64,000 nt of DNA from Pseudanabaena biceps PCC 7429 (lineage in GTDB: Bacteria > Cyanobacteriota > Cyanobacteriia > Pseudanabaenales > Pseudanabaenaceae). This document shows, piece after piece, positions 13,453 to 17,698 of the stretch. The DNA is taken from contig NZ_ALWB01000001.1 of assembly GCF_000332215.1 (NCBI RefSeq), forward strand, positions 1 through 64,000, written 5' to 3'. A program made the position numbers and the translations under genes. The notes under the pieces were generated by a model. It had not been told where the DNA came from. It saw nothing but the letters and a program-made list of their open reading frames with translations, and made no database searches. The number at the start of each line of letters is the position of its first letter. Position 1 is the first letter of the stretch.

Positions 13453-14463
13453 TTAGCTGTCAATGAGAGCATATAAGCCCGATCCTTTTTCCTTGATCAT
13501 GAATCCATACTTTTTAGCATTGGTTCTTAATGAACTCATGGATAAAGACTTACCACTTTTCTCTGAGTAGTACTTAGCAGCTTCATCGGCTGTAAATCGC
13601 TTATCTGCATTAGATTTTGCTAATTCTTTTTCCTGATATCGCAAGCTAAGAGCTTCATCCGTTGGAAAAAATTTCTCGTTAGCCCCAATCAAAGTTTTGA
13701 CTAACCCGATCGCCTTCAATTCGGCATCAGTCATCCTTTTAAGAGCTTTAAGTGTAATCCCTCTAAGCGATCGCAAAATTACAGACCCATCGCGATTAAG
13801 TTTGTAAGTAATTTTAGGCTTTGCAGTCGCGGCGATCGTATCGCTTAAACCCTTACCATTTAAGGATTTTTCAATCGATGGATCTGCGATAGTTGCATCA
13901 TCAACTTTTACCCATTTACCATCTTTAGGAGCGCCCTCCCATTCCCAAATTCCGCCAGTCTGTTCAAAAATTCTTTGCTTGACATAATCGAATTGCGTTT
14001 GGTTTTGCGCTTCAGATAAAGCCTTAATTTCCGTTTTTTGGATTGCCAATGCTTGCAGCATTTCATCAAATGAGATTCGATTCCCTTCCTTAAAAGCAAA
14101 AGTCGTGGCGATCTCATCGTTCCAACCCTCACTATCTAAGGATTTTTCAATCGTGGGAGCTGCGATAGTTTCGCTTCTAGAGGATTGCCTCTTAGTTCCT
14201 TTTTTAGCCGCTTTATCTAAATCCTTTTGTGTAAAATTGCCACTAATAGTTAGAACTGTTTCTTCTCTAGTCGGGAGAGAGATCCCATCTTTTTCTAGTT
14301 GATCGCGGTGGTAATCCTGTATCTCGATCTGCAAATCATTTATTTTATGTGTCTTGTTCGATATCTCCTTTTTATGGTGTTCAATCTCATTATCTTTAAT
14401 AGCAATAGCATTATTAAGCCGCTTAATTTCGGTTTGAAGTTCAGTTAAGCGACTATCTTCAAC
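13453..14463 (-). CDS. C-terminal part of a probable frameshift fusion: coiled coil plus DNA-binding-like tail
   Basis: The frame is open from 14463 to 13453, but its first available start codon (TTG at 14334) lies inside an obvious coiled coil (SRLTELQTEIKRLNNAIAIK...). The coding sequence therefore begins upstream, in the frame of the 109-residue gene at 14445-14774. The -1 frame is entered exactly at an A AAA AAG heptamer (14463-14469), giving a fusion of about 440 residues. The middle contains a duplicated segment, TIEKSLDSEGWNDEIATTF and SIEKSLNGKGLSDTIAAT. The tail (FTADEAAKYYSEKSGKSLSMSSLRTNAKKYGF) resembles a helix-turn-helix. Function is unknown; a plasmid DNA-binding role is likely. 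Confidence 0.65.
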   Translation of the reverse strand, partial: VEDSRLTELQTEIKRLNNAIAIKDNEIEHHKKEISNKTHKINDLQIEIQDYHRDQLEKDGISLPTREETVLTISGNFTQKDLDKAAKKGTKRQSSRSETIAAPTIEKSLDSEGWNDEIATTFAFKEGNRISFDEMLQALAIQKTEIKALSEAQNQTQFDYVKQRIFEQTGGIWEWEGAPKDGKWVKVDDATIADPSIEKSLNGKGLSDTIAATAKPKITYKLNRDGSVILRSLRGITLKALKRMTDAELKAIGLVKTLIGANEKFFPTDEALSLRYQEKELAKSNADKRFTADEAAKYYSEKSGKSLSMSSLRTNAKKYGFMIKEKGSGLYALIDS

Positions 14464-14774
14464 TTTTTTGCGGGTGCTGTAGCCTCGCTGCGAGTATTTT
14501 CGAGATCTTCTAGTCTGGCAAGCAACGGGGCGATCGCCTCATTAATAATCACTTGAATATCCACATCAGTGACGGCGCTAGATTGTCCAACATTGTTAGA
14601 AATTGTTTGACCTGACTTCACACTACGAATAACAGCAATAATCGAGCCTCCCATATTTGGTTTATCTGCTCTAATCAACTTATTAGCAGTGGCATACTCT
14701 CTCAACCAGTTCGCCACATCATCAGGCAACCGTACCGAAACGAAATTAGGATCTTTAGTCATAATGTTTAACAT
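14445..14774 (-). CDS. Ribbon-helix-helix-like DNA-binding protein, zero-frame product
   Basis: This 109-residue product (MLNIMTKDPNFVSVRLPDDV) begins with an RHH-like strand-helix segment (FVSVRLPDDVANWLREYATANKL). It ends APAKKLKIVA six codons after the slippery heptamer at 14463-14469. It is divergent from the serine recombinase at 14959. The 185-bp gap between them is packed with TTAGACAA/TTAACAAA motifs, and one motif overlaps this gene's start codon, which fits autoregulation. Confidence 0.7.
   Translation of the reverse strand: MLNIMTKDPNFVSVRLPDDVANWLREYATANKLIRADKPNMGGSIIAVIRSVKSGQTISNNVGQSSAVTDVDIQVIINEAIAPLLARLEDLENTRSEATAPAKKLKIVA
14463..14469 (-). other. Candidate programmed -1 ribosomal frameshift site (A AAA AAG)
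   Basis: On the minus strand the zero frame reads GCA AAA AAG TTG, so the heptamer A AAA AAG is in the correct phase for simultaneous P- and A-site slippage, as in bacterial dnaX. Slipping by -1 leads straight into the open coiled-coil frame (GTT GAA GAT AGT), whereas the zero frame stops six codons later. A CGCTTAA/TTAAGCG stem can form 11 nt downstream. Established knowledge concerns the heptamer type; its use here is inferred. Confidence 0.65.
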
Positions 14775-14955
14775 TGTCTAACTCATGTTTACATTATAGC
14801 TTATGTCCAACAAAGTCTAACAAAATGTTTAACAAAATCCTGTTTAACAAAACCGTTCCCTTTTGTTAAACAAAGTCTAACAAATGTCAAACAAATACTT
14901 GACAATGTTAGACAAAAGTTAGACAATGTTAAATATAGAGTAAAACAAAGTTAAA
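14769..14955. promoter_or_regulatory. Divergent promoter region with AACAATGTTAGACA-type repeats
   Basis: The region holds at least eight copies of gTCTAACAAA, gTTTAACAAA or the reversed TGTTAGACAA. Examples are at 14813-14823, 14825-14836, 14841-14850, 14867-14883 and 14905-14928. A promoter TTGACA (14899-14904), 17-bp spacer, GACAAT (14922-14927) for the recombinase lies inside the repeats. The same motif recurs within the recombinase gene (15132-15163) and around the next ORF (15621-15636, 15738-15757). This could be a res or partition site or a multi-copy operator. Confidence 0.5.
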
Positions 14956-14958
14956 CAA

Positions 14959-15624
14959 ATGAAAGCAATCGGATACATCAGAGTAAGCACTGAGATGCAA
15001 GCAAATGAAGGAGTAAGCCTCGATGCACAGAGCGCAAAAATTCGGGCTTACTGCGAACTCAATGATTTAGAGTTAGTCGAGATTGTTTGTGATGCTGGTA
15101 AGTCTGCCAAGTCTACCGATCGCGATGGTTTACAACAATGTTTAACAATGTTGTCTAACAATGAAGCCTCTGCCCTTGTGGTTTATAAGTTGGACAGATT
15201 ATCTCGCAAAGTTCTTGATGCTCTTAACCTAATCTCTGAGATTGAGTCTCATGGCGCTAGTCTGCATAGTATTGTCGAGAAACTTGATACACAGTCAGCA
15301 TTGGGTAAGTTTTTTGTAAACATGACCGCTGCTCTCTCACAACTAGAACGCGATCAAGTTTCAGAGCGTACCATCATGGCAATGGCACATAAAAAGGAAC
15401 AGGGGCAACATTGCGGATCACCTGCGTTCGGCTTTACAATGGTAGAGAAGAAGTTAGTAAAGGTTGCTAAGGAGCATGAGGCGATCGCACTCATCCAACA
15501 AATGAAAGCAGACGGGGCAAACTTACAGGCGATCGCTGATGAACTGAATAACCAAGGCATAACCACAAAGCGCGGTGCTAAGTGGCAACCTATGCAAGTT
15601 AGTCGAGTATTGGCTAGAGGTTAA
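14959..15624 (+). CDS. Serine recombinase (resolvase/invertase family)
   Basis: This 221-residue protein has the resolvase N-terminal domain: AIGYIRVSTEMQ with the nucleophile serine at residue 10, LVVYKLDRLSRK near 70-82, FFVNMTAALSQLERDQVSERT near 115-135, and a C-terminal helix-turn-helix (NLQAIADELNNQGITTKRG...WQPMQVSRVL). Length fits a small resolvase. It probably resolves plasmid multimers or cointegrates. The repeats upstream are a candidate res site. It is followed after 3 bp by a small ORF, probably co-transcribed. Confidence 0.9.
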   Translation: MKAIGYIRVSTEMQANEGVSLDAQSAKIRAYCELNDLELVEIVCDAGKSAKSTDRDGLQQCLTMLSNNEASALVVYKLDRLSRKVLDALNLISEIESHGASLHSIVEKLDTQSALGKFFVNMTAALSQLERDQVSERTIMAMAHKKEQGQHCGSPAFGFTMVEKKLVKVAKEHEAIALIQQMKADGANLQAIADELNNQGITTKRGAKWQPMQVSRVLARG

Positions 15625-16814: not shown

Positions 16815-17105
16815 TTATTTGTTTTCCTGTAACCATTGTTCTAAGAGCTTTGTGACTAGATCGGAAAAGTCTAAATCACTGCGCTCTAGTAGTTGTCTTT
16901 TGACTTCTAGGTTAATTTTCTTGGGTATATAGACCCCAATTTGCTCATAATCGGGATTGCTCCGTTTACCTTTTGCTCTGGATTTTTTTGGAGTTTGAGC
17001 AATTTCGGGTAGTGGCTGTACCTCATTTGCTGGTTCTGACTCTTGTTGCTCAGGTAGGACTTTACCTTTCATTGCATTGGACAAGGCACGAAATTTGTTG
17101 CTCAT
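16815..17105 (-). CDS. Small ParB-like partner of ParA (ribbon-helix-helix type)
   Basis: The start is the ATG at 17105, overlapping the parA stop as ATGA, which gives a 96-residue protein. The N-terminal half is polar and basic (KKSRAKGKRSN). The C-terminal half has an RHH-like pattern: YEQIGVYIPKKINLEVKRQLLER, then LDFSDLVTKLLEQWLQ. Small RHH proteins encoded directly after ParA act as the centromere-binding partner in type Ib partition systems, and I infer that role here. Confidence 0.75.
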   Translation of the reverse strand: MSNKFRALSNAMKGKVLPEQQESEPANEVQPLPEIAQTPKKSRAKGKRSNPDYEQIGVYIPKKINLEVKRQLLERSDLDFSDLVTKLLEQWLQENK

Positions 17106-17698
17106 TCCAGTAGCTCCTTGCATACTGCTACATATTCATTCCAAGCAATGCCAGAATTTGAGTCTTTGACTTCGTAGACGGGAACGCCTAGCAAAGCCGA
17201 TCGCTGAAAAGCTATAAATCGTCTAATCCCATTTTTGAGTAAGGGCATTCCTGATTCTGTGAGCATTTCACGGGCTTCATCCCCATCTTTAACGGGTTTG
17301 GGCGGGACGATCGTTAGTAAGACTTTATATTTATCTACTTTGATGTCTTTGAGTGCTGTGGTGGTTAGAGCGAGGGCATCGAGAGATAGGGCATCGGGAG
17401 TTGTTGGTAGTAATAAGACATCGCATCCATCGGCTAGGGCGGCGAGTTCTTCGCGATCGGGTCGAGCGGCGGTATCAATGACAATGTTTTCGTAGTTGCG
17501 GACGTGTTTGGTTGCGGATTTTTCGTCAACGACTTGAAATGGTAATGAGCCGCGATCGCGCCATGCTAGACAGCTACGATTTGGATCGCCATCGATGAGG
17601 AGGACGTTGCCTTTGGTTTGGTGTAGGTAAGTAGCAAGATGAATTGCTGTGGTTGTTTTACCGACACCACCTTTATAGGAGGTTATAGTGATAATCAT
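17102..17698 (-). CDS. parA: ParA-family partition ATPase
   Basis: This 198-residue protein carries the deviant Walker A motif SYKGGVGKTT near the N-terminus (signature lysine before GGVGKT), Walker A' region VLLIDGDPNRSCLAWRDRG, and switch NYENIVIDTAARPD. The short form without an N-terminal DNA-binding domain is the type Ib class, usually paired with a small RHH partner as found here. Direct repeats upstream of its start (17700-17777) may serve as operator and centromere. Confidence 0.9.
   Translation of the reverse strand: MIITITSYKGGVGKTTTAIHLATYLHQTKGNVLLIDGDPNRSCLAWRDRGSLPFQVVDEKSATKHVRNYENIVIDTAARPDREELAALADGCDVLLLPTTPDALSLDALALTTTALKDIKVDKYKVLLTIVPPKPVKDGDEAREMLTESGMPLLKNGIRRFIAFQRSALLGVPVYEVKDSNSGIAWNEYVAVCKELLE

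Follow-up and report, generated by a model that had tools for sequence, protein, structure and literature searches.

A plasmid-borne gene family of Pseudanabaena with a candidate programmed -1 frameshift between an RHH-like head and an exchangeable coiled-coil tail

The minus-strand gene at positions 13453 to 14774 of the window (the whole stretch of 64,000 nucleotides of Pseudanabaena biceps PCC 7429 analysed here, part of the 70.5-kb contig G000:C1) very likely uses programmed -1 ribosomal frameshifting, a reading to which we assign a probability of about 0.88 on comparative sequence grounds. The preliminary description of this DNA had proposed such a shift, yielding a short product and a fusion of about 440 residues, and the proposal now finds support in nine out-of-frame members that carry a slippery heptamer and in the constant spacing of an upstream GAGG; the repeat array, the recombinase that is swapped together with it and the exchange of modules described below were absent from that account. 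The elements are the following:

14445..14774, minus strand: zero-frame ORF giving the short product, with an RHH-like DNA-binding head of type A (weak Arc, CopG and repressor matches; head type in keeping with the upstream array).
14463..14469, minus strand: slippery heptamer A_AAA_AAG, in phase, kept in all nine out-of-frame members as A_AAA_AAG or A_AAT_TTT.
14483..14486, minus strand: SD-like GAGG, 13 nt 5' of the heptamer.
14417..14454, minus strand: stem-loop AGUCGCUUAA/UUAAGCGGCU, a candidate stimulator, beginning 8 nt past the heptamer.
13453..14463, minus strand: -1 frame tail, with coiled coil, central region and C-terminal winged-helix-like domain, reached only via the shift.
14765..14957, no strand: about 13 copies of an operator-like repeat, TGTYTAACA, helically phased and lying between head gene and recombinase.
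14959..15624, plus strand: small serine recombinase, divergently oriented (Pfam Resolvase, E 3.9e-40), co-varying with array and head type.

The RHH-like ORF (14774-14445) ends, in sequence and in translation, with GCA CCC GCA AAA AAG TTG AAG ATA GTC GCT TAA, and the heptamer lies within it at 14469-14463 in the X_XXY_YYZ phase, as had been described, with five codons past the heptamer region before the stop TAA. A slip of one base backwards at this point indeed enters a frame that remains open for 336 codons, from 14463 to 13453, and the overlap offers no start codon in that frame; in agreement with the earlier statement that none precedes residue 43, the first codon that could serve as one, a TTG, stands at 14334, 43 codons into the tail. 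Because the homologues begin MTKDPNF or MAKDPNF, the true start of the window gene is probably M5 (14762), which would give products of about 105 and about 436 aa.

The heptamer and the GAGG are each uncommon where they stand: an efficient in-phase heptamer is expected by chance in a 30-codon overlap with P ~0.035 (2-5% per overlap across the members), or with P ~0.007 if only the A6G and A3T4 heptamers are counted in the same overlap, and a GAGG or GGAG 9-14 nt upstream with P ~0.027. Both heptamers found in the family belong to classes that are efficient in E. coli, namely V_VV.A_AA.R, which covers A_AAA_AAG, and H_HH.U_UU.Y, which covers A_AAU_UUU (PMC4066793), and the spacing of SD elements that stimulate -1 shifts is 9-14 nt (PMC5009743). 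The end of the GAGG lies exactly 13 nt 5' of the heptamer in 12/12 heptamer-bearing members, and the first base of the heptamer, which is the third base of a four-fold degenerate codon, is A in all 12 (GCA, TCA and ACA, for three amino acids) against a base rate of ~0.25. The anti-SD CCUCC is present at the 16S end of two congeners (G021 and G012); no such sequence was seen in the window's genome (G000) or in P. galeata (G022), where the 16S end may be unassembled.

Downstream structure is likely a further element of the cassette, with less certainty than the other two, since in G012, G010a and G001b the simple hairpins are ordinary for the genes concerned (ranks 0.13-0.23), G021 has no simple hairpin starting 5-8 nt past the heptamer, and covariation in the stem is weak (A_AAT_TTT group). 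The stem CGCTTAA/TTAAGCG that had been pointed out in the window is real and in full comprises 10 bp, in which AGUCGCUUAA (14454-14445) pairs with UUAAGCGGCU (14426-14417); compared with 116 background sites it falls in the top 2.6%, and it recurs identically in P. galeata. Stems begin 6 or 8 nt past the heptamer in most members, structure is strong in the window gene, G013, G001a and G024a, and that of G013 is the most striking (11 bp, -17.3 kcal/mol). These ranks are taken against background sites, z-scores of hand-picked hairpin windows having been set aside as selection-biased; an Rfam scan gave no match.

An alignment of homologues had been proposed beforehand as the test of heptamer and phase, and its outcome favours the shift. 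Thirteen further homologues were found, all in Pseudanabaena, and every out-of-frame member (9/9 with the window gene included, 9/14 of all members) has a canonical heptamer in phase: A_AAA_AAG in seven (the window gene, G022, G012, G001a, G001b, G010a and G021) and A_AAT_TTT in two (G013 and G024b). Two unrelated canonical heptamers in the same place and phase, at a constant distance from the SD-like element, thus support ribosomal frameshifting, even though the nine members, being kin within one genus, are not independent. At least three relatives lie on labelled plasmids (pPg_01 of P. galeata and two contigs of P. biceps O153). Among the databases searched, plasmid records yielded P. galeata as the only match, IMG/VR no relatives, and GTDB contigs only congeners, of which one is catalogued under Phormidium tenue FACHB-1050; the full profile, run over 390 genomes of the class, found the congeners and one broken out-group match in G279, and the tail profile matched in 1/160 genera. 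A pattern match in G204 was rejected as unrelated in sequence, and profile matches in G007, G011 and G020 as chromosomal coiled coils. In G010 and G016 (L074, L075) the central motif LPIIEAVENIAAPTVQNPLPDQ also survives as isolated remnants, flanked by little of the gene. The public annotation of P. galeata (L081, 79-1019) makes two hypothetical proteins of the halves, WP_281009577 and WP_281009578, and mentions no frameshift.

The remaining five members (G024a, G016, G017, G010b and G003) are single-frame fusions, and it is from these that one might argue for a frameshift mutation or sequencing error, whereby one ORF would have been broken by an indel and the run of A would be coincidental. 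Uninterrupted homologues, which had been named beforehand as evidence of this kind, do therefore exist (5/14); none of the 14 members, however, mends its frame through a longer or shorter run of A, the indels lying elsewhere. G024a and G016 keep A_AAT_TTT and have one added base farther on, their former zero-frame tail being still visible in the +1 frame; G017 keeps A_AAA_AAG; G003 has no slippery site; and in G010b the heptamer is mutated in place to AAATACT and GAGG is replaced by GACG, so that the single-frame members support a functional fusion rather than an error. Moreover, an identical junction is found under another head in P. galeata, whose plasmid is complete and independent, and this rules out a sequencing error; seven further out-of-frame homologues keep an in-phase slippery heptamer, and the dN of the tail is well below its dS. 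The homologues have thus largely refuted this explanation already, as far as their sequences can tell, and we regard it as extremely improbable.

Slippage during transcription, producing mRNAs with one base more or less so that the ribosomes would not have to shift, could likewise account for the seven out-of-frame members that have a run of six A. Six A are nevertheless short, the poly-A sites cited for such slippage being runs of more than seven (PMC3711429); the two other out-of-frame members use A_AAT_TTT, a sequence other than a homopolymer, and this speaks against slippage of the polymerase; and a conserved SD at -13 is meaningful for ribosomes only. We consider this explanation very improbable.

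The comparison of the window gene with P. galeata (dN 0.128, dS 0.446; dN < dS in other pairs also) indicates that the tail is under purifying selection and evolves as protein. The tail could alternatively be translated independently of the head, either from an internal start or through reinitiation once the short ORF has ended, in which case the GAGG would act as coupling signal; TTG or ATG codons inside some tails, together with the two separate proteins annotated by NCBI in P. galeata, fit that idea. Against it, no member has a start codon in the overlap, the first candidates lie 17-57 codons downstream in unrelated places, the tail of G010a has no start codon at all, the coding region ahead of the candidate starts is conserved, and the natural fusions join head and tail; we deem a separate tail highly unlikely. 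Since these parts occur as single-frame fusions in five relatives, we take the long product of the frameshifting gene to be real.

The architecture of this product can be judged from the AF2 model of one natural fusion, G024a, which has two head helices (14-26 and 37-49), a coiled coil modelled with confidence (69-130) and, with fair confidence, a C-terminal H-H-H-strand-strand domain of winged-helix-like appearance; Foldseek with this model gave no significant match, and the model of the tail is poor (pLDDT 58). Searches of Pfam, NCBIfam, PHROGs and PDB returned weak matches only, among them, for the head, Pfam Arc (E 0.086) and CopG antitoxin (E 0.09) and, for another head type, a PHROGs Arc-like repressor (E 0.0032); profile searches found no transposase domain in the window tail. 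In G003 (L042, single-frame), and only there, an InsA-like zinc ribbon replaces the winged-helix-like end (Pfam E 2e-4).

In the window the array of 8-10 bp repeats, about 13 of them of the TGTYTAACA type spaced at 10-12 and 21-23 bp, accounts for 18 repeat matches against 0.7 expected, and relatives with the same head type carry the same repeats (17-19 matches against <1 expected), while other heads stand beside TGTAAAACA (type B), TGTAACAGT (C), TGTATAGAT (D) or GTGTATACA (E); in G024b, of type B, only two array matches are left. The recombinases show the same division into A and B, with 86-97% identity within and 51-54% between. Because the array changes with head type and recombinase, the head is very probably the binder of the array, and these two travel as a unit with the recombinase. 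The window gene shares its tail with G022, which has a B head, and its head with G012, G001a and G024a, a distribution from which we read that tails exchange separately from heads; exchange occurs at the SEATAPAKK hinge, which holds the frameshift cassette. Two more perfect copies of the repeat, TGTTTAACA and TGTCTAACA, lie within the recombinase coding sequence at 15139-15160 of the window. The recombinase is missing in L014 (G024b) and L023 (G022), and upstream of the array these have a reverse transcriptase of group II intron type (G024b) and a Tn3 transposase (G022). The neighbours of the head gene in the window are the serine recombinase and a DUF3854-type gene, with no adjacent NTPase partner; a separate ParA lies at 17102-17698, and by position the gene is therefore not the ParA partner of the plasmid. 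Each of three two-copy genomes holds different head and array types (A and B in G001, L005/L015, and in G024, L003/L014; B and E in G010, L007/L019), which is suggestive of incompatibility, in only three genomes and with a chance of ~40% that it would arise at random.

The cassette, its conservation, the coding constraint on the tail, the natural fusions and the co-variation of array, head and recombinase are all properties of the sequences, and from them we infer slippage at some rate, DNA binding, repression, bridging and a role in maintenance. Most ribosomes would pass GCA AAA AAG and terminate within a few codons, thereby releasing the short RHH-like DNA binder, whereas some, slowed by the GAGG 13 nt upstream and the stem-loop 8 nt downstream, would re-pair one base back and continue into the tail, giving the product of about 436 aa with its head, coiled coil and second, winged-helix-like domain. 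The head would bind the repeats that separate its own gene from the divergent recombinase. Probably the short form would coat this array and repress both promoters (autoregulation); the long form, in a ratio set by slippage, would contribute an oligomerising arm or a second one that binds DNA. A role in plasmid control is a plausible hypothesis; that the long form bridges plasmid sites for maintenance, by resolution or segregation, is a tentative proposal, somewhat below even odds. Equally conjectural is the wider picture of a modular plasmid-maintenance gene, in which the cassette would be the hinge between exchangeable halves, the recombinase, array and cognate head setting plasmid identity or compatibility and the tail bringing a second DNA-binding domain, with the rate of slipping fixing the ratio of short, coating to long, bridging forms and the fusion hard-wired in some lineages. 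The short products of L004, L005, L007, L015 and L039 end in VIAA, RAA, EAA, LAA and LAA, and the host tmRNA tag is ANNIVSFSRKAAPVAA, ending in -VAA before its stop; an SsrA-like degron on the short form is not claimed, as -AA before the stop falls out of the SS[ILV]E codons of the other frame.

The best known bacterial genes with -1 frameshifts are those of insertion sequences and dnaX. With E. coli dnaX (tau/gamma) the gene shares A_AAA_AAG, an upstream SD-like element, a downstream stem-loop and two products with a common N terminus (PMC3711429, PMC5009743). It differs in that the E. coli shift gives the short product, whereas in the nine members here it would give the long one, and the gene families are unrelated; G024a, G016 and G017, being in frame, would resemble dnaX provided that slippage still occurs in them. 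With orfA-orfAB of IS3/IS911 it has in common a short product that binds DNA (OrfA there) and a longer one made by shifting (OrfAB), a site of the A_AAA_AAG type, and SD and structure (PMC4066793); the window tail, in contrast, has no transposase match, and the gene adjoins a serine recombinase and a repeat array, on plasmids. The gene works like dnaX or IS911 orfAB and belongs to neither, because the window tail contains no transposase and the genes are unrelated.

As regards the array, omega of pSM19035 and ParR, which are RHH binders, also have short repeats arrayed beside their genes, and in C. perfringens ParR and parC form type-specific pairs of binder and array (PMC9499535, PMC9426499). 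These centromere-binding proteins differ from the present case, in which there is no neighbouring ParA or ParM, the partner gene is a recombinase, the repeats are of 8-10 bp in 10-12 bp phase, and the tail is frameshifted. To our knowledge KfrA is encoded in a single frame, has another head and lacks a tail of this sort. It is likewise a plasmid DNA-binding protein of alpha-helical coiled-coil structure (PMC7783346), and our gene has no profile match to it. A literature search of partial coverage returned no description of frameshifting in a gene of this kind, and a family of plasmid DNA-binding proteins with a full dnaX-like cassette is apparently undescribed. Its natural variants act as controls, with two heptamers and with fused-frame members, one of them free of the signals, thereby making the cassette directly testable and suggesting that a frameshift ratio can tune a regulator of plasmid maintenance.
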